A stretch of DNA of 64,000 bases from assembly GCF_030758315.1 (NCBI RefSeq), contig NZ_CP132336.1, positions 3,563,001-3,627,000 of the forward strand, in the 5' to 3' direction. The notes below the pieces were generated by a model, which was not told where the DNA came from, searched no databases, and saw nothing but the letters and a program-made list of their open reading frames with translations. The position numbers and the translations under genes are program-made. This document shows positions 12,404-23,778 of this stretch, piece by piece. The number at the start of each line of letters is the position of its first letter. Position 1 is the first letter of the stretch. This DNA is from Pararhizobium sp. IMCC3301 (GTDB lineage Bacteria; Pseudomonadota; Alphaproteobacteria; Rhizobiales; GCA-2746425).

Positions 12404-12656
12404 CTTGATCTCTTTGGGTTGGCCAGAATTTCAACCTGTAAAATAGACACCTAAGTTAAAACAATGGTTAAGGTGCCCCGGCGTGCGTCAGGGGTGACCG
12501 CCATCGACGGTTCCCAATGCGCTGTGCTTGCCGGTAACTCCGGCAAACGTGCCTTGACGGGAAATCGCCCGCGCTGCAGTGTGCGCCGCGTTTGCAATTG
12601 GAGTTCTCTGTTTGCAGATCGCATCTACACAGGACCTGCAATTCCGGAACGCCTCT

Positions 12657-13655
12657 ATGCTATTGCCCGATTCTGACACTGATTTTCGCCTGCTGGACGG
12701 CGGCACGACGATTCCTCCTGAATTGAAAGGTGCAATTGTCGTTATCGGCAATTTTGACGGTGTACATGCCGGGCACCGGGTCATTCTGCAACACGCAATG
12801 GATCTTGCTGCAGGTGCAGTTCCGGTTCTGGCCCTGACATTCGAGCCGCATCCAAGAACCGTATTTAATCCGTCAGACCCGGTATTCCGTCTCAGCCCAA
12901 AGCTGGAAAAAGCCTCATTGCTGCGCGCTTGCGGACTGCGCGGTGTGCTGAACTGGGATTTTTCGCGCGAATTTGCCGGTTTGAGCGCCCAGACCTTTGT
13001 CGAGGACATTCTGGTCGGACATCTGGCAGCCTCGCATGTTGTCGTCGGCTATGATTTTCATTTCGGCAAGAGCCGTGAAGGCAGTCCGGCCTTCTTGTTT
13101 GCCGCCGGACAATCGGCCGGATTTGGCGTCACTGTCGTTCCCCAGGTCAATCTGCCGGACGGTCTGGCGGTGTCTTCCAGCGCCATCCGTACTCATTTGA
13201 TGAATGCCGATATCCGGTCTGCCAATAATGAACTGGGCTATCACTGGTTTGTCCAGGCAGACGTGATTCATGGCGAAAAGCGCGGACGCGAACTCGGTTA
13301 CCCCACTGCCAATATGAAATTATCGCCCCATTGCAGACTGGCGCTGGGCATCTATGCGGTCAGCGTGCGCCGCCACAACGGCACGCTCCACCACAGCGTT
13401 GCAAGTTACGGGCGGCGCCCGCAATTCGACAATGGCGCAGCGCTTCTGGAAACCCATCTGTTTGATTTTTCAGACGATCTGTATGGTGAGACCTTGATGG
13501 TCACCTTTCATGAATTCCTGCGTGGCGAAGCCCGGTTTGACGGGGTCGATGCGCTTGTCGCGCAAATGGACAGGGACAGTGCCGCCGCCCGCAGGATTCT
13601 GCAAGCCGCCTTGCCACTGTCGCCACTGGATGCCCGCCTGTCGTTTCAACCCTGA
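12657..13655 (+). CDS. ribF: Bifunctional riboflavin kinase / FAD synthetase RibF
   Basis: Makes FMN and then FAD from riboflavin and ATP in the cytosol. The N-terminal nucleotidyltransferase domain (about 20-180) has GNFDGVHAGHR, VVGYDFHFGK and the SSSAIR motif. The C-terminal flavokinase domain (about 190-310) has the GRELGYPTANM motif, GIYAVSV and the ETHLFDF strand. The length (332 aa) is slightly above average. The longest frame starts 78 nt earlier; the ATG at 12657 is chosen because it places the domain at a normal distance. In many proteobacteria ileS follows ribF directly; here ileS lies 7.1 kb away, beyond an accessory cluster. Confidence 0.93.
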   Translation: MLLPDSDTDFRLLDGGTTIPPELKGAIVVIGNFDGVHAGHRVILQHAMDLAAGAVPVLALTFEPHPRTVFNPSDPVFRLSPKLEKASLLRACGLRGVLNWDFSREFAGLSAQTFVEDILVGHLAASHVVVGYDFHFGKSREGSPAFLFAAGQSAGFGVTVVPQVNLPDGLAVSSSAIRTHLMNADIRSANNELGYHWFVQADVIHGEKRGRELGYPTANMKLSPHCRLALGIYAVSVRRHNGTLHHSVASYGRRPQFDNGAALLETHLFDFSDDLYGETLMVTFHEFLRGEARFDGVDALVAQMDRDSAAARRILQAALPLSPLDARLSFQP

Positions 13656-13837: not shown

Positions 13838-14680
13838 ATGAGCAATAAACCTGACACTGCAGGCCAACTGGATTGGCGCAAATTCCGCAACCCCAATAAT
13901 GTACGAGCATTCCGGGAAAGCGACAGAAACCCTGATATGGCGCCCATGCGGGCAGAGCCCGTGGCAGAGGGCGCTAATCTGCGGCCTGCTTCCTCGGAAA
14001 TACGTGGAGGTCCGGGATTTCGCGTCAACACCCAATTTGAATCCGTGTCAAAACGGCAGATTGAGCAATTATCCGAGTTCGAAACGCCTGAAATTTCGGA
14101 TGCGCTGAACAGAATGTTCACCATGGACCCGGCAATTCGAAATGTGGTGAACGAACAGTCACTGTATGGACCGGCCATTACCGTCAAGGTTTACCCCGGC
14201 GATAATCTTATGGTGCACAAGGCGCTGGATATTGCCAGGCCGGGTGATGTGATCGTGGTCGATACCAGTGGCCTGCCGCGTAATGCCTGTGTCGGGGATA
14301 TGATCGGCAACAAGGCAAAACACATTGGCGTCGCCGGGTTTGTCATTGATGGCCTGGTCAGAGATATTTCCGGGCTGCGCGAAATCGGACTTCCGGTCTA
14401 TGCCACCGGTATCACCGCATTTGGTCCCTTGCACAGAGGTCCGGGAGAACTTTGCCACGCCATTTCCTGTGGCGGCATTGTTGTCACTGCCGGTGACGCG
14501 ATTTGCGCCGATGCCAGCGGCATCGTCGTGGTCAACAAGAATTTCGTCGGGGAAACCATCAGCCATCTCCGGAACCAGCGCAAGAGCCTGGAAGAATACA
14601 CCGCGAATGTCAAAAAGGGTAAATTCTCAAATGAGTGGGTCGACAAGCAGCTGAGCCTTGATGGCTGTCTGTACGAATAG
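13838..14680 (+). CDS. RraA-family protein (aldolase/decarboxylase-like) with N-terminal extension
   Basis: 280 aa. Residues about 70-255 are an RraA/HMG-aldolase-like domain: TPEISDALNRM, the glycine-rich GDMIGNKAKHIGVAGFVIDG, and the GLVRD motif whose Arg and Asp are the substrate and metal residues in the aldolase branch, then GLPVYATG. Keeping RD suggests an enzyme (4-hydroxy-2-oxoglutarate-type aldolase or oxaloacetate decarboxylase) rather than an RNase E inhibitor. The first ~65 residues (DWRKFRNPNNVRAFRESD and on) are a polar, Arg/Asn-rich extension not normal for the family. It is the first gene of a tightly packed operon with two ATP-grasp ligases, an Ldh-like protein and a flippase, so its product or substrate (pyruvate or a 2-oxo acid) may feed the ligases; that is inference. 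Confidence 0.82.
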   Translation: MSNKPDTAGQLDWRKFRNPNNVRAFRESDRNPDMAPMRAEPVAEGANLRPASSEIRGGPGFRVNTQFESVSKRQIEQLSEFETPEISDALNRMFTMDPAIRNVVNEQSLYGPAITVKVYPGDNLMVHKALDIARPGDVIVVDTSGLPRNACVGDMIGNKAKHIGVAGFVIDGLVRDISGLREIGLPVYATGITAFGPLHRGPGELCHAISCGGIVVTAGDAICADASGIVVVNKNFVGETISHLRNQRKSLEEYTANVKKGKFSNEWVDKQLSLDGCLYE

Positions 14681-14696
14681 CTCAGGGCACCGCGCC

Positions 14697-15917
14697 ATGT
14701 CACCTCATGCAATTCAAAACCACAAAGCCCGGCTCTGGTCCCTCTGGTACCGGGTGCAATTCTTTACCGATGTTCGATCCATCATGAGGATTCTGAAATA
14801 TCGCAAACTGCGCGAGACCTATTATCGACAGTTCTGGACCGAGGCGGCGGCGAATTTCGAAGCCCAAATCGACACCCAAAGTGGCGGTCTGACGCAAATC
14901 AGCAAAGCCGGTTGGACGACCTTCGTCAGGCAGCACCAGATGATGTTTGACAGTCCCCTGATGCTCGACATCATGGGAGACAAGGCGCTGACCTATCAGC
15001 TCTTGCACAAACTGCAGGCACCTGTTGTGCCACATCTGCTGTTTTCAATGAGCGAACTGGATGATGCCCGGCGGTTTCTGCAGCGCCACCGCGAAATTGT
15101 TGTGAAACCGGCAAGCGGGACCGGCGGCGGCAGAGGTGTGACGACTGGTATTTTCACTGACCGGCAGCTCAGGTCTGCTGCCCGGCTTGCGGCCCGTTCG
15201 GGTCGCAAACTGATCGTTGAAAAGCAGGTTGAAGGCGAGTCGTACCGACTGCTGTTCATCAATGGCAGGTTTATCGATGCCATCAGACGCGATCCGCCCT
15301 GTGTAATCGGCGACGGCAGATCCACCATCCGGCAACTGATCAAAGCGGAGAATGCCCGGCGCGAAAACGAAACCCCGATACGGGCCTTAAGTCCGCTGGT
15401 CATCGACCGCGACATGCTGAACTTTATGAAATCCAGCCATCGGACCCTGTCTGATATTCCGGCCGCGAATGCGCTGGTTCAGGTCAAACGGGCAACCAAT
15501 GAAAACAATAAGCATGGAAATCTGAATGTGACGGACTTGGTCAGTCAGGTGATTGTATCGAAAAGCGCTGAACTGGTGCAAAAGCTCGGTGTGCAATTTG
15601 CTGGCGTTGATCTGATCTGCCGGGATATTGGCGGATCGTTCTCATCGGACAATTGTTATGTCGGGGAGATCAATACGACGCCTGGGCTTCACCATCACTA
15701 TCTCATAGCCAATCCGGCAGAGGGCAATCAGGTTGCTGAAATTGCATTGCAATATCTGTTTGCAAACAATATCGGCATTGTGAATTCCGGCTCGGGCCGT
15801 GGCAGCAACTTGTTTTCTGCTATGTCTGTTGGGCAGAACGAAGCATTCGCCGGAACACTGCCGCAGAACGCCATACAATCCATTCCCAAGAAAGCCCATG
15901 CTAATGCGCTACGCTGA
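14697..15917 (+). CDS. ATP-grasp ligase, cyanophycin-synthetase-like
   Basis: Predicted ATP-dependent carboxylate-amine ligase, 406 aa, forming an amide through an acyl phosphate. After a basic, helical N-terminus (about 1-75), the ATP-grasp fold shows the ATP-binding Lys and glycine loop (VVKPASGTGGGRGV) and an EKQVEGESYRLLFINGR strand. The RDPPCVIGDGRSTIRQLI region recalls cyanophycin synthetase and related ligases. The metal site is in GEINTTPGLHHHY. The Mur-ligase half of cyanophycin synthetase is absent. Start: the ATG at 14697, 16 nt after the RraA stop with AGGGC upstream; an ATG at 14658 inside that gene is possible. Its end overlaps the next ligase gene by 20 nt. Substrate unknown. 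Confidence 0.85.
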   Translation: MSPHAIQNHKARLWSLWYRVQFFTDVRSIMRILKYRKLRETYYRQFWTEAAANFEAQIDTQSGGLTQISKAGWTTFVRQHQMMFDSPLMLDIMGDKALTYQLLHKLQAPVVPHLLFSMSELDDARRFLQRHREIVVKPASGTGGGRGVTTGIFTDRQLRSAARLAARSGRKLIVEKQVEGESYRLLFINGRFIDAIRRDPPCVIGDGRSTIRQLIKAENARRENETPIRALSPLVIDRDMLNFMKSSHRTLSDIPAANALVQVKRATNENNKHGNLNVTDLVSQVIVSKSAELVQKLGVQFAGVDLICRDIGGSFSSDNCYVGEINTTPGLHHHYLIANPAEGNQVAEIALQYLFANNIGIVNSGSGRGSNLFSAMSVGQNEAFAGTLPQNAIQSIPKKAHANALR

Positions 15918-17157
15918 TCTGCAGGCATCGCTTTCAGGCTTTGATCTGACTGAAATGGACGTTTCTACCCCTGTGCTCATCCTTGGAGGTAAGGAAAATG
16001 CTCTGTCGCTGGTACGCCGCTTCGGCGCTGCCGGTATTGCAACCAGAGTGTCCGGCCCGGCGGATTGCTGGGGTATGCACTCGCATTACTGTCGCGAAAA
16101 ATTTCCCGTTCCGCGCGGGATTTCCAGCGCTCAATACTGGCACGATCTCCTGCTGTCGGGAAAAGATGCCGGTTTGCATGCCGGGTTGCATGCCGAGTTG
16201 CATGGAAGTCTGCTGATTGCCTGCAGCGATGAAGCAATCGATTTTCTCGCCCGCAACCGTACGGAGCTTGAAAGCCTGTATCAGTTCGACCATGGCGACC
16301 CGGACATGCAATTATCACTGCTGGACAAACGCGATACGCTGAAACTGGCGCAATCAGCCGGGGTGGCGACACCGCAATACTGGACCGTCAATAATGAGGA
16401 AGATCTGGCGGCGCTGCGACAGTCGGTCGAGTTTCCGGTGATGGTCAAGCCGATCATCTCGCACGAATTCATCAGCATCTTCGGGCTCAAGCTGTTCATC
16501 ATTGACAGTGAATTTGATGAATTGGCGGAAAAAGTACGATTGGCCTGGGCTAATAACGTCGAAGTCATGGTCATCGAGATGATTCCGGGGCCGGACTCCC
16601 AACTCAGCAGCTACTACACCTATATCGGTGCCGATCATCAGCCGTCCTTCGACTACACAAAAAGCGTTATCCGCAGATTTCCGGTAAATCGCGGCCTGGG
16701 CTGTTATCATAAAAGCGAATGGCTGCCGGAAACCGCCGAAGCGGGAAGCAAGTTTTTCCAGGGCATCGGCTTTACCGGTTTCGGCAACATCGAATTCAAA
16801 CGCGATCCGCGCGACCAAATACTGAAAGTCATCGAGTCGAACGCCCGCTTCACATCGGCTCAGGAACTGATTATCCGGGCCGGCGCACCGATTGATTTCA
16901 TTTACTACTGCAAGGCGACCGGACAGAAGGCGCCTGGCTTTGAGACATATGATCAGGATCTGACGTTGTGGTACGGCTTGCGGGATTTCCTGGCATTTGT
17001 GGAAATGCGCAGGGCGGGGTCAATTTCAACCGGGCAATGGTTGCGCAGCCTGTTTCCGTTCAAACATGTATCGCCGCTGCACAATATGTCTGATCCCTTT
17101 CCCAGCCTTGCCGCCCTGACGACGCGCATTGAAAAGACAGTGACGGGTTTGCTGTGA
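15898..17157 (+). CDS. Second ATP-grasp carboxylate-amine ligase-like protein
   Basis: 419 aa, unlike the preceding ligase in sequence. The N-terminal pre-ATP-grasp domain has a nucleotide-fold start (PVLILGGKENALSLVRRF, then GIATRVSG), as in D-aspartate-ligase-like and carboxylate-amine ligase-like proteins. The ATP-grasp part has PVMVKPI (ATP Lys), VIEMIPGPDSQLSSYYTYIG, and the metal-binding end FGNIEFKRD and VIESNARFT. The start at 15898 overlaps the previous gene by 20 nt; its last 4 nt overlap the GTG start of the next gene. Three 12-bp tandem repeats at 16169-16204 encode a GLHA-GLHA-ELHG stretch. It likely adds a second amino-acid-like unit to the product of the first ligase. Confidence 0.82.
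   Translation: MLMRYADLQASLSGFDLTEMDVSTPVLILGGKENALSLVRRFGAAGIATRVSGPADCWGMHSHYCREKFPVPRGISSAQYWHDLLLSGKDAGLHAGLHAELHGSLLIACSDEAIDFLARNRTELESLYQFDHGDPDMQLSLLDKRDTLKLAQSAGVATPQYWTVNNEEDLAALRQSVEFPVMVKPIISHEFISIFGLKLFIIDSEFDELAEKVRLAWANNVEVMVIEMIPGPDSQLSSYYTYIGADHQPSFDYTKSVIRRFPVNRGLGCYHKSEWLPETAEAGSKFFQGIGFTGFGNIEFKRDPRDQILKVIESNARFTSAQELIIRAGAPIDFIYYCKATGQKAPGFETYDQDLTLWYGLRDFLAFVEMRRAGSISTGQWLRSLFPFKHVSPLHNMSDPFPSLAALTTRIEKTVTGLL
16169..16204 (+). repeat. Three tandem copies of a 12-bp repeat within the second ATP-grasp gene
   Basis: CCGGTTTGCATG, CCGGGTTGCATG and CCGAGTTGCATG in direct succession. The unit is a multiple of three, so it keeps frame and encodes repeated G/E-L-H-A. It lies in a loop-like part of the N-terminal domain and probably arose by slippage. 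Confidence 0.85.
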
Positions 17158-18197
17158 GCGCGGATTTGATCAGCGCTGCCGATCTGCAGGCCTATCTTCT
17201 CAGACTGTTCGATGCTGTTGCCATCAACGATGCGCAAGCCCGCTCGGTGGTAAACAACATGGTCTGGAGCGAATTGGTCGGGCGTGCCAATTTTGGCGTC
17301 ATTCGCATCCCGGTTCATTTGCAGCGCCTCCAGCACGGAGTGTTGAATGCGGTGTGTCATCCGCAATTTACCAGATCGGGCACCGGGTCGGGCCTGCTGG
17401 ATGGTGACAACGGCTTTGGCTATTACGCTGGTGAATTGGCCATGAAACATGCCATTCAACTGGCTCGCGACAACGGCATTGGAATTGTTGGCGTCAGAAA
17501 CAGCAATTTCTTCGGCACGGGAGCCTATTTCGCTAATCAGGCCGCAGAGAGCGGCATGATCTCTCTGGTGACAAGCAATTCCTTCCCCAAGGTGGCCGCC
17601 CATGGCGGCTTGTCAGCCGTATTGGGGACAAATCCGTTTGCTTTTGGCGCGCCGCGCGCAAATGGCGATCATCTGCTGGTCGATTTCGCAACATCATCGC
17701 TGGCCGGGTCCACCGTGCGCGCCTATCTTGCCGAAAAAAAACAACTGCCCGAAGGTCTGGCCATCATGCCCGATGGCACGCCGGCGCGTGATCCGGCGCT
17801 TATCGGCGAGGCCACATTGCTGCCTTTTGGCGGCGCAAAAGGCTACGGGCTGTCTTTGATGGTGGAGATACTGTCCGGCATCCTCACAGGCGCGGGGTTT
17901 TCGCATCAGGTTAAATCCACCTACTCCAACTTTGCCGAAAAAAGTGACAGCGGCCACTGCATGATCGCCATTGATATCGAGAAATTCATGCCGCTGGCAG
18001 ACTTCTTGTCCCGGTTTGAGGCCCTGATCGCGCTGTTGAAGGCCTCCAATCCTGTGGATGAGGTCCTGCTGCCCGGTGAAATCCGCTGGGCCAATTTCCG
18101 CAGGAACAGTGAACGCGGCCTGGAAATACCGCAGCCGGTGAGGGCAGACCTCACCGCCCTGTCGGCCAATTTCCAGGTTCCGGTGCCATGGAAGTAG
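17154..18197 (+). CDS. Ldh/malate-dehydrogenase-family (type 2) oxidoreductase lacking the motif histidines
   Basis: 347 aa, the normal length of the AllD/DpkA/sulfolactate-dehydrogenase family, which uses NAD(P)H to reduce 2-oxo acids or cyclic imines. The nucleotide-binding patterns are kept (LGTNPFAFGAP, GGAKGYGLSLMVEILSG). From memory of the family, the first motif G-x-HSHG-xxR carries a catalytic His; here it reads GRANFGVIR. The second motif SNHFG reads SNFFG. Both histidines are therefore replaced. The start is GTG, overlapping the stop of the ATP-grasp gene (GTGA). It may be an altered reductase/dehydrogenase or a binding protein for the cluster's 2-oxo or imino acid substrate. Confidence 0.83.
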   Translation: MSADLISAADLQAYLLRLFDAVAINDAQARSVVNNMVWSELVGRANFGVIRIPVHLQRLQHGVLNAVCHPQFTRSGTGSGLLDGDNGFGYYAGELAMKHAIQLARDNGIGIVGVRNSNFFGTGAYFANQAAESGMISLVTSNSFPKVAAHGGLSAVLGTNPFAFGAPRANGDHLLVDFATSSLAGSTVRAYLAEKKQLPEGLAIMPDGTPARDPALIGEATLLPFGGAKGYGLSLMVEILSGILTGAGFSHQVKSTYSNFAEKSDSGHCMIAIDIEKFMPLADFLSRFEALIALLKASNPVDEVLLPGEIRWANFRRNSERGLEIPQPVRADLTALSANFQVPVPWK

Positions 18198-18205
18198 AGC
18201 CCGTC

Positions 18206-18316
18206 ATGTCTGGGCAGAACCTCTTGATAATCCGCCTCGCACCGACGCCGCTGACCGGCCTTCGCTTCGGACCTCCTTATGCGGCATTTCAACCTGAAAA
18301 CGCTCTGAGCCGATGA
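18206..18316 (+). CDS. Possible small peptide (36 aa) coupled to the flippase gene
   Basis: An ATG 8 nt after the Ldh-like stop opens 36 codons ending in TGA, which overlaps the ATG of the flippase gene in an ATGA junction. The peptide begins MSGQNLLIIRLAP, is basic and Pro/Leu-rich, and has no known family. TAGAG lies about 6 nt before the start. It could be a leader that couples translation of the flippase, a small functional peptide or substrate of the ligases, or chance. The other genes of the operon are joined by similar overlaps, which favours translation. Confidence 0.35.
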   Translation: MSGQNLLIIRLAPTPLTGLRFGPPYAAFQPENALSR

Positions 18317-19623
18317 TTGAAAAGCTGGTCAAATTTCTGTCCTCCCTGTTTGCCACGTCATTCCTGCTGACGCTGGCACGGCTGGCAGGGGCGGGCACTG
18401 GAATAATCCTGCAGATTCTGATCGCCCGCTATTATGGCGCGGGAGTGCTCGGCACCTATTATCTGGCGCTCAGCCTCGCGGGCATCCTCTCAATATTCAT
18501 GTCGATGGGATATCCATGGATCTTGGCACCGATTGTTGCCGCCAGCGAGATGGAAAAACCGGCCACGGTCCTTTCAGATTTCCTCAAGCTTGTACGCAAA
18601 GATGCTCTGCTCCTGTCGGTGGTGTTCGCAGTTCCCGCAGCGCTGCTGATCTGGCTTTATCCGGGCGCAGCCCTCGACCAACGCTTGGCGCTGCTGATTG
18701 GCGTTGCAACGGCCCCGGTCTATACCGCCATGCGCGTCTGCGGCAGCCTCGCCAATGCCATGAAGTTTTTCCGGCTGGCGAATTTGCCTGAACTGCTGGT
18801 GCGGCCCGTTCTGACACTGGTTTTTGTCGCCGCGGCCATCGCACTGGCGGTGCAGCTCAACGCAGTTTCGATTGTCGCCATCAACTTCTTCATAGCGCTG
18901 GCCCTGACGATCTGGATGGCATTTTTTCTGTCAAGAAATGCCGGGCTTGGCTTTGCGGCGCGCTCCGATGGCGGCCAATTATCAGCCCGTGAAACATCGA
19001 AGTTGAGACGGCTCGCTGTGCCGATGATTTTCTCGACCCTGTTCGTCAATATGTTTGCCGATGTGGATATATTGATGATCGGATTGATCTTGCCGGCCGG
19101 GGAGGCCGGCATTTTCGGCGTTGCCATGAAAATCGCAGCCCTGCTGGTTTTCGCCGTCCAGATAACCCATCAGATTTTATTGCGTGACGCTTCGAACGCC
19201 CATCTTGCTGCCGACCGCCAACAAATGCATCAGATCATGCGAAAGGCAAACCTGTTTACAATTGGCTCCAGCGTGGCATCGTTTGTACTGATGGTTTTGT
19301 TCGGCAGATTTCTGCTCGGCCTTTTTGGCACAGAATTTCAGGCAGCGTATTTTGCTCTGCTCGGATTGATCCTGGCGCAGATCATTCGCGCAGCCGCAGG
19401 TCCGGCCATTCAGATATTGATGATTACAGAAAATCAGCGGACCGGAATCCCGGTCTATATCTGCAGTGGTATCGTGCTGTTGCTCAGCAATCTGCTTCTT
19501 GTGCCGACATACAAATATGAGGGCGCGGCAGCCGCTGTTATCATCACCACACTGTTCTGGTCGCTGTGGCTCAATCATCTGGTCAGGCGGAAAACCGGCT
19601 ATCAGGTGTCGGTTTTCCGCTAA
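18313..19623 (+). CDS. Wzx-like flippase (oligosaccharide/lipid-linked precursor transporter)
   Basis: 436-aa inner-membrane protein of the MOP superfamily, with roughly twelve hydrophobic segments (first at about 13-38, 44-66, 102-120; last near 380-425). The N-terminal pattern LARLAGAGTGIILQILIARYYGAGVLGTYYLALS is that of polysaccharide-unit flippases and distinguishes it from the drug-exporting MATE protein at 41988-43463. Central features include MFADVDILMIG, the usual Asp-containing helix of Wzx proteins. It likely moves the product of the preceding enzymes, possibly lipid-linked, to the periplasm. It ends 8 nt before the convergent oxygenase gene. Confidence 0.85.
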   Translation: MIEKLVKFLSSLFATSFLLTLARLAGAGTGIILQILIARYYGAGVLGTYYLALSLAGILSIFMSMGYPWILAPIVAASEMEKPATVLSDFLKLVRKDALLLSVVFAVPAALLIWLYPGAALDQRLALLIGVATAPVYTAMRVCGSLANAMKFFRLANLPELLVRPVLTLVFVAAAIALAVQLNAVSIVAINFFIALALTIWMAFFLSRNAGLGFAARSDGGQLSARETSKLRRLAVPMIFSTLFVNMFADVDILMIGLILPAGEAGIFGVAMKIAALLVFAVQITHQILLRDASNAHLAADRQQMHQIMRKANLFTIGSSVASFVLMVLFGRFLLGLFGTEFQAAYFALLGLILAQIIRAAAGPAIQILMITENQRTGIPVYICSGIVLLLSNLLLVPTYKYEGAAAAVIITTLFWSLWLNHLVRRKTGYQVSVFR

Positions 19624-19631
19624 CGCAGATG

Positions 19632-20312
19632 TCAGGCGACGGCCATGGAAGTGGCAGCCGGGGTGTAGATGTTTTCACCCAGCGGATCATCGCCCTTGTC
19701 GTTTATCTTGATGTAGAGAACAGATGTTCCGGCCGCTTTGACCCGTTCATGAAATATCGATGAGCCGTTAAACAGGATCAGATCTCCGACAGACTCATTC
19801 AGCAACACTGCCTCGTTGGCGACATAGGCCTGCTGTGAATTGATGTTATCGGACTCGCTGATAAACATGGCTTTGTCGTTCGGATTCTCGGACTGATCGA
19901 GCGTTGGAAAGACCGCAACAGTCGAACCTTTGGAAAGTGCAATCGGGAGCCCGATCGAAATTTGTGACGCGCATCTGTCCTTGTGCGGTGATGGCCAGGG
20001 ATTGGCTTTTTCATCGTAGACCTTCAGATGGCGCTCGGAGATTGTGATCTTGTCCTCATCCATGGACGTCAGACAGGCAATTCCTTTTCGGAACTCAAGA
20101 GCTGTTTCGTCAGACGAGAACCCAAACACGAATTGCCGTTTCTTGCCCTTCACTTGTACCGATTTGTTTTCTTCAGCCGCCAGTGACATGGCCTTTTCGT
20201 TAAAGTCCTTGAGCTCGGCAACGAATGTGTCACTCAGCACATCTTTCAGGTGGACATAGCCATTTGTATGGAGTTCCGCTTTGAACGGGGTCAGATCATA
20301 TTTGAAACACAT
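19632..20312 (-). CDS. Putative Fe(II)/2-oxoglutarate-dependent oxygenase (PhyH-like)
   Basis: 226 aa. The start resembles phytanoyl-CoA-dioxygenase-type enzymes (TNGYVHLKDVLSDTFVAELKDF). An iron-binding HxD is visible as PSPHKDRCASQ, followed by the ISIGLPI strand, and the distal His as LILFNGSSIFHERV. The final basic residue that binds 2-oxoglutarate may be the Lys in VLYIKIND; this is uncertain. AGGAAC lies about 8 nt before the ATG. It is convergent with the flippase gene with only 8 nt between stops, so it probably belongs to the same locus, hydroxylating an amino acid or the finished product, under its own promoter. Confidence 0.65.
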   Translation of the reverse strand: MCFKYDLTPFKAELHTNGYVHLKDVLSDTFVAELKDFNEKAMSLAAEENKSVQVKGKKRQFVFGFSSDETALEFRKGIACLTSMDEDKITISERHLKVYDEKANPWPSPHKDRCASQISIGLPIALSKGSTVAVFPTLDQSENPNDKAMFISESDNINSQQAYVANEAVLLNESVGDLILFNGSSIFHERVKAAGTSVLYIKINDKGDDPLGENIYTPAATSMAVA

Positions 20313-20760
20313 CGGGATCGTTCCTGAAATTGAGCAAAGGCAGTTTTACCAATTTACATAGGCTACGAGGCACCCGGCAAGCAGCATTTAAGTCTTTGGT
20401 TAAGCAGAATGTTTAATGCCGCAAGCGCTGCTGCCTGTCGCGGGAACTGCAACTGCTTCCGCTGCGAAGATTCAAATACCGGCGGCCGGTATTTTCAATA
20501 CGCAGGGCTAAAATTGACGGCATTGGCAGCAAAAGCTTTATTCGGAGACAAAGCGCTGTTAAAAGCCCCAGCATATGGCAACCGGCACGGGTTCGATGAT
20601 CCACATATCCAGACGAACAATACGAATTACAGGCCCGGCCTCCCTTTGAGGCGCGGGCAGGTATGCGCGCGGGGAGCCGGGTTCCGAAAAACACTGCAGC
20701 GAAGAGCAGGCACCGGTCCGGAGCCAGCTCTGACGATTTCTCCTGATTTTAGAGTTGATA
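20313..20760. other. Intergenic region between oxygenase and ileS, no supported gene
   Basis: Must hold the divergent promoters of the oxygenase gene and ileS. A frame at 20409-20768 (+) exists, but its translation is rich in Cys, Arg and Gly without family resemblance, and it runs into ileS. No T-box or other riboswitch fold was recognised by eye. Confidence 0.5.
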
Positions 20761-23700
20761 ATGGCTGACAATCCCAACGCGCCATCGCGCGATTATTCCA
20801 AAACCCTGTTTTTGCCGAAGACAGATTTCCCGATGCGGGCCGGACTGCCCAAGAAGGAACCGCAAATTCTCGCTTTCTGGGACCGCGCCTCATTGCAGGA
20901 CAGAATTCTCGGCAAGACCACGAATGCGCCGCAGCAGGCCGGTGCAACGCCCGGCCAGCGGCCTAAATTTGTGCTGCATGACGGCCCGCCCTATGCCAAT
21001 GGCAATCTGCATATCGGCCATGCCCTCAACAAGGTTCTGAAAGACATCATCTGCCGCTCAAAACAGATGCAGGGATTTCATGCGCCCTATGTTCCAGGTT
21101 GGGATTGCCACGGTCTGCCGATCGAATGGAAAATCGAGGAACAATACCGCGCAAAGGGCAAGGACAAGGACGAGGTTCCGATCAACGAATTTCGCAAGGA
21201 GTGCCGTGACTTCGCCGACTACTGGATCGGTGAGCAATCCGCCGAGTTTCTGCGGCTGGGTGTTCAGGGCGATTTCAAGAACCCTTACAAGACGATGGAT
21301 TTTCATTCCGAGGCGCGCATTGCCGGTGAATTGATGAAATTTGCCACCACCGGTCAGCTTTACCGTGGTTCCAAACCGGTGATGTGGTCGGTGGTCGAGC
21401 GCACCGCGCTGGCCGAGGCCGAGGTTGAATATCACGTCTATGAAAGTGATACGGTCTGGGTCAAGTTTCCCGTTGTCAAAGGACCTGAAGCTCTGCTTGG
21501 AGCTTCGGTCGTAATCTGGACCACGACGCCCTGGACGATGCCCGGCAACCGCTGTGTGTGTTATTCGGACAGCGTTGCCTACGGGCTTTATGAAGTCGTG
21601 GAAGCAGAGCAGGATTTCGGCCCGCAGCCGGGTGAAAAATATATCTTCGCCGACGCGCTGGCAGCAGAAAGCGCGGCCAAGGCAAAGGTCACATTGTCGC
21701 GTCTGGACGCTGTCTCTGCCGACGATTTGAAAGGCATCATCCTGCACCATCCGTTGCGCGGGCTCGGGGTCGATGGATATCAGTTCCTGGTGCCGATGCT
21801 GCAGGGCGATCACGTCACCGCAGAGGCAGGCACCGGCTTTGTCCATACCGCGCCCGGTCATGGCCGCGATGACTTTGAGAACTGGGTGGCGAAACGCCGC
21901 GAAGTCGCGGCGCTTGGCATTGATACCGCGATTCCCTTCACCGTCGATGATGCCGGATTTTTCACCGCCGATGCACCGGGGTTCGGCCCCGATGCTGAGG
22001 GCGGTGCTGCCCGTATCATCGATGACAAGGGCAAGAAAGGCGACGCCAATCAGCGCGTTATCACTGCCCTGATCGGCCAGAACAATCTGTTCGCGCGGGG
22101 CCGCCTGAAGCATGATTATCCACATTCATGGCGCTCCAAAAAGCCGGTGATCTTCCGCAACACACCGCAATGGTTTGTCTACATGGATGAGGACATAGAA
22201 GGGCAGGCGGGCGATACTTTGCGCGCCCGCGCTCTGGCCGCCATTGATGCCACAAGGTTTTATCCGCAAGCTGGACAGAAGCGGTTGCGGGCGATGATTG
22301 AAAACCGTCCCGACTGGGTTTTATCGCGCCAGCGCGCCTGGGGTGTTCCCATCGCGGTGTTCGTTGATGAGGAGGGAAATCTGCTGAATGATGATGCGGT
22401 CAACCAGCGCATCCTCGATGCGTTTGAAGCCGAAGGTGCGGATGCCTGGTTTGAAGAGGGTGCCAAAGAACGCTTTCTCGGCAATGATCACGATCCGGCC
22501 AAGTGGCAGCCGGTTAGCGATATTCTCGATGTCTGGTTCGACAGCGGCTCGACCCATTCCTATGTGCTGGAAGACCGTCCGGAATTGAAATGGCCTGCCG
22601 ATCTCTATTTGGAAGGCTCCGATCAGCATCGGGGATGGTTCCATTCATCGCTGCTGGAAAGCTGCGGCACGCGCGGCCGCGCACCTTATGAAGCAGTGCT
22701 GACCCATGGCTTCACGATGGACCAGGACGGCCGCAAAATGTCCAAATCTCTTGGCAACACGGTGGTGCCGCAGGACATCATCAAGCAGTACGGTGCCGAT
22801 ATTCTGCGCCTCTGGGTGGCGTCGGTCGACTATTCCGAAGATCAGCGGCTCGGACCTGAAATTATCAAGACCAATGTGGAAGCCTACCGCAAGCTGCGCA
22901 ACACCATCCGCTGGATGCTCGGGGCGCTCAGTCATTTTGACCCGCAGACAGACCGCATCGAGCCGTCTGCGATGCCGGAGCTGGAGCGCTATATGCTGCA
23001 TCAGTTGCGCAATCTGGAGCAGACCGTCAATGACGGCTATGACGCCTATGATTTCAAAAAAGTGTTCAGCGCCTTGTCGCGTTTCATGAATCTAGATTTG
23101 TCCGCGTTTTATTTCGATGTGCGCAAGGACACGCTGTATTGCGACCCGATGTCCAGTGCCACCCGCAAGGCGGCGCTTACGGTGATCGATCAGATTTTTG
23201 ACAATCTGGTGCGCTGGCTTGCGCCGATCATCCCCTTTACTTGTGAAGAATCCTGGCTTTACCGCCAGAACCGGCTGGACGTGCTGGAAGATGACCGGGA
23301 GGAGCTGGATACCATACCGCCTTCAGTGCATCTGCAGGATTTCAATCCCCTGCCGCAAGCCTGGCAGGATGATGAACTGGCCGAAAAATGGCGTCGAATT
23401 CGCGCGGTTCGGATGGTTGTCACCGGCGCGCTTGAAATCGAGCGCCGCGAAAAACGCATTGGCTCTTCGCTGGAAGCCGCACCGCGCGTCTATCTGGACG
23501 ATGAGGCATATCAGGGCGTTGCGCAGCAGTCCGATTTTGCCGATATCTGCATCACCAGCGGAATTGACATGGAACCGGGCCCCGGTCCCGCTGCTGCCTT
23601 CCGACTTGGCGAAGTGCCCGGCGTTGCAGTGGAATTTGCCCGCGCCGAGGGGCAGAAATGTGCCCGGTCGTGGAAATTCTCCACCCGGATTGGCGAGGAT

Positions 23701-23778
23701 GCGGATTATCCCGATGTCACGCCGCGCGACGCACAGGCCTTGCGTGAACTGGCTGATGCCGGCCTTCTGGAGCAATAG
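20761..23778 (+). CDS. ileS: Isoleucyl-tRNA synthetase
   Basis: Charges tRNA-Ile with isoleucine; class I enzyme, 1005 aa. The HIGH motif is in [18 protein letters not shown], the CP1 editing domain carries [14 protein letters not shown], and KMSKS is in [11 protein letters not shown]. The C-terminal zinc knuckle of the E. coli enzyme is degenerate: only GQKCARSWK remains and the later Cys pair is absent, which I recall as usual in Rhizobiales. The start ATG at 20761 is used; a TTG two codons earlier is also in frame. Followed by lspA. Confidence 0.97.

Follow-up and report, generated by a model that had tools for sequence, protein, structure and literature searches.

A conserved ATP-grasp gene cassette between ribF and ileS that may build an amide-containing surface unit

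Several described systems resemble, in part, the six-gene cassette (genes A to F) analysed here. Exopolysaccharide and capsule loci of the Wzx/Wzy type that carry ATP-grasp amidoligases and GNAT_6/FemAB genes share a flippase and ATP-grasp ligases with it, and many relatives have their cassettes among genes for glycosyltransferases, Wzx, Wzy, Wzc, GNAT_6 proteins and polysaccharide deacetylases. In contrast to these loci, our cassette has no adjacent glycosyltransferase, polymerase or ligase gene, and we know of no Wzx/Wzy-type polysaccharide locus in which RraA, Ldh_2 or an oxygenase like F is found. ATP-grasp amidoligases were reportedly surveyed by Iyer et al. in 2009. The mycosporine-like amino acid pathway (mysC, mysD and mysH, with mysA for a sugar-phosphate cyclase and mysB for an O-methyltransferase) is alike in having two unrelated ATP-grasp enzymes and a PhyH-type oxygenase. 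It was rejected as an identity for the cluster since a Pfam scan of the interval found neither a sugar-phosphate cyclase (DDGS/EVS) nor an O-methyltransferase; in place of mysA and mysB, the cassette has RraA, Ldh_2 and flippase genes. Dapdiamide- and rhizocticin-type pathways also combine ATP-grasp amide formation, Fe/2OG oxidation and an exporter, and the rhizocticin pathway has a pyruvate-type aldolase as well. The six genes differ from those pathways in lacking a PEP mutase, an NRPS and an aminotransferase, in having two ATP-grasp enzymes of different kinds, and in their polysaccharide context elsewhere.

The window, the whole 64,000-nt stretch that was analysed (C1:3563001-3627000), comes from a closed genome of 4.58 Mb. 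Two housekeeping genes on the forward strand border the cluster: ribF on the left (12579..13655, start codon uncertain; Pfam FAD_syn 4e-44, Flavokinase 9e-37) and ileS on the right (20755..23778; tRNA-synt_1 4e-129). Genes A to E are on the forward strand, and F is on the reverse strand and convergent with E. ORF and Pfam/NCBIfam family checks agree with the gene content that an earlier note had claimed for A to F. The junctions it listed match the sequence exactly, with +16 nt for A-B, -20 for B-C, -4 for C-D, +8 for D and the small ORF that follows it, and -4 for that ORF and E. The most likely starts of B and C are 14697 and 15898, since both align with orthologue starts. The proposal of a coupled operon is supported in that the genes make up a conserved biosynthetic unit that could be co-transcribed. 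The sequence has neither a sharp step in GC content at the interval nor a tRNA gene anywhere in the window, and hence nothing that points directly to a mobile element. A plasmid search returned one distant record only.

The order and strand of A-B-C-D-E are identical in a species of the same genus (G003) and in two members of other families of the order (G010 and G024), and the cluster is at different genomic places in these genomes. To find more distant carriers, 84,980 species genomes were scanned with an alignment of C as the query, which gave 68 loci; a single-protein query found none. Profile matches were detected for B at 56 of these 68 loci, A at 47, D at 34, F at 25 and E at 10, and all of these counts are lower bounds since many contigs are short. 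This was a gene-neighbourhood search of the kind proposed earlier, with C as the seed, and the genes proved to be linked rather than scattered. By record title, the carriers (mostly MAGs) include Hyphomicrobiales, Rhodobacteraceae, Henriciella, Croceibacterium, Marinobacter, Planctomycetota, Myxococcales, Gemmatimonadetes, Ignavibacteriae, Bacteroidetes, KSB1, Calditrichia, Pseudonocardia and others. C was found in 14 of 397 sampled genomes of the order and, at a stricter cut-off, in 4 of 385 genomes drawn evenly from the class. The cassette is accessory and patchy in its distribution, and A-B-C-D is a real unit. By Mantel test (p 0.001), the pairwise distance matrices of A, B, C, D and F are correlated, which shared species ancestry alone could explain. 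Linkage that is kept from Hyphomicrobiales to Planctomycetota, Myxococcota, Ignavibacteria and Actinomycetota makes it likely that the product has a real function. One genome (G161) has C in triplicate (L027, L035 and L036), and two of the copies lie near each other along with B and D.

The class II pyruvate aldolase family, which contains RraA and HMG aldolase, has been described with oxaloacetate decarboxylase activity (PMC5065237). Gene A (13838..14680) encodes a 280-aa RraA-like homologue of this family (PF03737, 5e-42). D171, G172, R175 and D176 are invariant in 52 linked homologues, and in an alignment with the HMG/CHA aldolase 3noj the R175-D176 pair falls over the R-D pair that includes R123. 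A carries the metal/pyruvate signature of the class (an Arg-Asp pair and a GD motif), and this conserved signature is its likeness to HMG/CHA aldolase and RraA (PMC5065237). A differs from both in scoring below every NCBIfam cut-off, in its biosynthetic context and in an N-terminal extension of its own, 60-80 aa long in near relatives.

The two ATP-grasp enzymes are unrelated to each other. Gene B (14697..15917) encodes a stand-alone ligase of the cyanophycin synthetase/GshB type. It aligns with cyanophycin synthetase and NAGGN synthetase over the ATP-grasp region, matching positions 206-473 of the 862 in the NCBIfam profile cya_phycin_syn (4e-46); PDB matches were 7ta5 and 7lgm, and E336 and N338 are invariant in four orthologues. 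Cyanophycin synthetase itself was rejected for B because the Mur-ligase half of CphA is missing and the score, 157 bits, is far below the family cut-off of 850. The protein from gene C (15898..17157, 419 aa) has weak sequence matches to ATP-grasp enzymes of the CarB/CPSase and Ddl/VanA types. Its AlphaFold model (pLDDT 93) has an ATP-grasp fold, for which the nearest Foldseek matches were biotin carboxylase, PurK and the L-amino-acid ligase BL00235, and the Glu-x-Asn metal ligands E313 and N315 are invariant in 43 homologues. C is probably a carboxylate-amine (amide) ligase, although its fold is equally close to carboxylases. The prediction of amide ligation is helped by a distant relative of C in Acetoanaerobium, whose gene adjoins those of an apparent Mur-type ligase and an Asp/Glu racemase (both named by eye).

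Gene D (17154..18197) encodes an oxidoreductase of the Ldh_2 family (PF02615, 8e-98, 328 bits). In this family, two active-site histidines, His44 and His116 of AllD, are called invariant (PMC3527362). D shares the fold family and the cofactor residues with the dehydrogenases AllD, ComC, YiaK and DpkA, and T159, P161, D177 and K229 are invariant in 38 sequences. In contrast to these enzymes, D in the window has Phe at both histidine positions (F47 and F119). Among the 38 linked D sequences, the window's included, the residues at the two positions were FF in 17, HF in 10, QH in four, QF in two, QY in two and other combinations in the rest, with HH in none. Without both histidines, D would not be an ordinary malate or lactate dehydrogenase; its reaction may be of another kind, acting for instance on an imine or with assistance from the substrate. 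D keeps its cofactor residues, but for the redox step in the earlier note a plain lactate/malate-type reaction is doubtful. An Ldh_2 paralogue in the same genome (L133, G000:C1:2030483-2031451) keeps both active-site histidines. At the 68 loci, a DUF1932-type dehydrogenase is found at 10 and D at 34, never both (P 4.5e-4), a pattern that tracks taxonomy and so is not independent; this mutual exclusion suggests that one enzyme functionally stands in for the other at an NAD(P)-dependent step. Enzymes that may run the A and D steps in parallel form are encoded at two cassette-like loci (L058 and L093), which have genes for an HpcH/HpaI pyruvate aldolase and a D-2-hydroxyacid dehydrogenase as well as a Gfo/Idh-like gene. 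As a member of Ldh_2 without the family-invariant histidines, D is a useful target for enzymology.

Gene F (19632..20312, 226 aa) belongs to an undescribed sequence family: neither Pfam nor NCBIfam gave a match, and the PDB gave no confident one by sequence. H110, D112, H188, R190, K202 and N204 are invariant in 24 sequences. Foldseek matched the AlphaFold model (pLDDT 90) to SnoN, GriE, KanJ and EctD with TM scores of about 0.5-0.6. Because H110, D112 and H188 are invariant and the model is confident, F is predicted to be an Fe(II)/2-oxoglutarate-type oxygenase with the PhyH-type fold, a double-stranded beta-helix with an HxD...H triad. F moves around the cassette among the loci that have it. 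It is directly before A in six (L047, L049, L060, L064, L067 and L078), within the core in two (A-F-B-C in L073 and A-B-F-C in L090), after D in L089 (A-B-C-D-F), and convergent with E, as in the window, in L092 and L118. At the three nearest loci F is not adjacent to the cassette, and tblastn there missed it for that reason; its link to the set emerged from profile and ORF searches. Across the 397 genomes of the order, eight have F and 14 have C, and seven have both, where 0.3 would be expected by chance (hypergeometric 9e-11); the eighth F carrier, without C, is a 71%-complete assembly. These positions and the co-occurrence with C make F part of the system. An oxygenase family without a Pfam model is likewise a useful enzymology target.

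Gene E (18313..19623) encodes a 436-aa Wzx-like (MOP-type) flippase that matches PF01943 (Polysacc_synt) above the cut-off (1.4e-8). Its orthologues are in the same position at the nearest C-seeded loci and at L017-L019. Polysaccharide genes other than E occur at 36 of the 68 loci, a count that is conditional on C since the loci were selected by C. They encode glycosyltransferases, GNAT_6/FemAB proteins, MBOAT with SGNH, polysaccharide deacetylase, Wzx, Wzy and Wzc. At 10 loci a GINT1-type gene, which is rare, lies close to the cassette. Among 13 cassette genomes that were picked knowing that many had GINT1 in the locus, 11 carried it, ten of them as a single copy; it was not found in G000 (this genome), G003, G010 or G024. 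Neither the window nor the close relatives in Hyphomicrobiales have neighbouring glycosyltransferases; there the cassette stands alone with E, and the flippase is the sole hint of a surface product. Outside the close relatives the cassette is often among polysaccharide genes, which supports, without proving, an amide-bearing non-sugar substituent for a surface glycan or lipid-linked unit.

We put at about even the chance that A-F is one conserved cassette that makes an amide-containing non-sugar unit and delivers it to the surface, most likely as a substituent of a surface glycan or of another lipid-linked unit. This reading draws on the gene content, coupling and linkage, on active-site signatures that are intact in A, B, C and F, on the ATP-grasp and PhyH-type folds modelled for C and F, and on the polysaccharide context in other lineages. 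A, as a metal-dependent pyruvate-type aldolase or decarboxylase, would make or trim a short 2-oxo or hydroxy acid. D, as an NAD(P)-binding Ldh_2 relative, could act on that acid or on an imine formed from it. B and C would form amides one after the other, each by activating a carboxylate and coupling it to an amine. F might hydroxylate the acid, an amino acid or the finished unit, and E would flip the lipid-linked product or export it. The earlier note had suggested an amide-type metabolite or a lipid-linked surface unit; the context elsewhere favours a product of the surface or lipid-linked kind, and the exact chemistry given here is inferred. The note knew of no named pathway with this set, and our targeted searches of open-access papers found no matching description of A-F. 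We rate the cassette as a variant of ATP-grasp biosynthetic cassettes and not as a categorically new system. More tentatively, and with the balance tipped against it, it could represent a widespread undescribed pathway in which a new Fe/2OG oxygenase family and an Ldh_2 enzyme that works without the family's catalytic histidines equip surface glycans or lipids with amide-linked hydroxy-acid units of a new class. If the cassette does decorate surface glycans, this would account for the ATP-grasp and RraA genes that many polysaccharide loci have as orphans, and would offer a testable product. These proteins are prone to generic annotation or misannotation as RraA, malate dehydrogenase, ATP-grasp or hypothetical proteins.

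The product could instead be a small diffusible metabolite, such as a modified di- or tripeptide, a metallophore or an antimetabolite, with E as its exporter and not a flippase of lipid-linked units. A pair of unrelated ATP-grasp enzymes alongside a PhyH-type oxygenase is reminiscent of how small-peptide pathways are built, the cassette is alone in Hyphomicrobiales, and MOP-superfamily proteins are generally known to be able to export small molecules. However, E matches Polysacc_synt, the cassette is found repeatedly in polysaccharide loci with glycosyltransferases, GNAT_6 and Wzx/Wzy, and no NRPS, PKS or receptor genes were recognised among the annotated neighbour clusters. We consider this explanation doubtful.

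Modification of peptidoglycan or another cell-wall peptide is improbable. Here C would be similar to a D-aspartate-ligase-type enzyme that adds the unit to a wall precursor, in line with its weak likeness to Ddl/VanA, the Mur-type ligase and amino-acid racemase genes (again by eye) that adjoin its distant Acetoanaerobium relative, and the GNAT_6/FemAB genes near several loci. Beside A-F in the window and in close relatives, however, there is no Mur-type or racemase gene, an aldolase and an oxygenase are at odds with known wall-peptide chemistry, and the context elsewhere is mostly exopolysaccharide.

The small ORF between D and E (18206..18316, forward strand) had been offered as a possible small peptide, which did not hold up: it is not conserved, the gap between D and E is -4 to +16 nt in ten relatives, and we judge it to be outside the cassette. 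A graspetide-type RiPP with this 36-42 aa ORF, which overlaps the start of E, as the precursor has a negligible chance of being right and was rejected, since a conserved precursor peptide is missing (none of the ten relatives has room for the ORF) and neither ATP-grasp enzyme matched a graspetide model.

The cassette lies in an interval that varies between relatives. The ribF-ileS-lspA framing of the earlier note is right, as ribF and ileS adjoin in G010 and G024; the clusters of these two genomes sit elsewhere and their ribF-ileS region has no intervening cluster. Its description of the cluster as inserted is partly right: the contents of the interval differ among species of the genus, and some of them have other cargo there. 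In the comparison of this interval that had been proposed, two species of the genus have the whole cluster, one has it in decayed form and two lack it. G003 has an intact cluster in an interval of 21 kb, and G001 has about 8.5 kb of other genes between ribF and ileS and no cluster. The ribF-ileS site of G002 (L112, 9715-11733) has a decayed cassette in which A is truncated, B and C have been lost, D is reduced to its last 70 residues and E is intact. In G004 (L114, 13740-16535), a single 931-aa ORF fills the interval on the strand opposite to ribF and ileS. The interval is a site of gene turnover. A chance neighbourhood of unrelated metabolic genes would fit the different cargo in sister species, but conserved linkage (the same order at other places in other families and across phyla, and the co-occurrence of F and C within the order) refutes it.

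Upstream of ileS, a hairpin-forming leader element is present at 20618-20690 of the window. The leader region had no Rfam match, and its 44-nt core was absent from all 56 other genomes searched. In all five species of the genus, the core occurs once per genome with zero mismatches outside two free positions.
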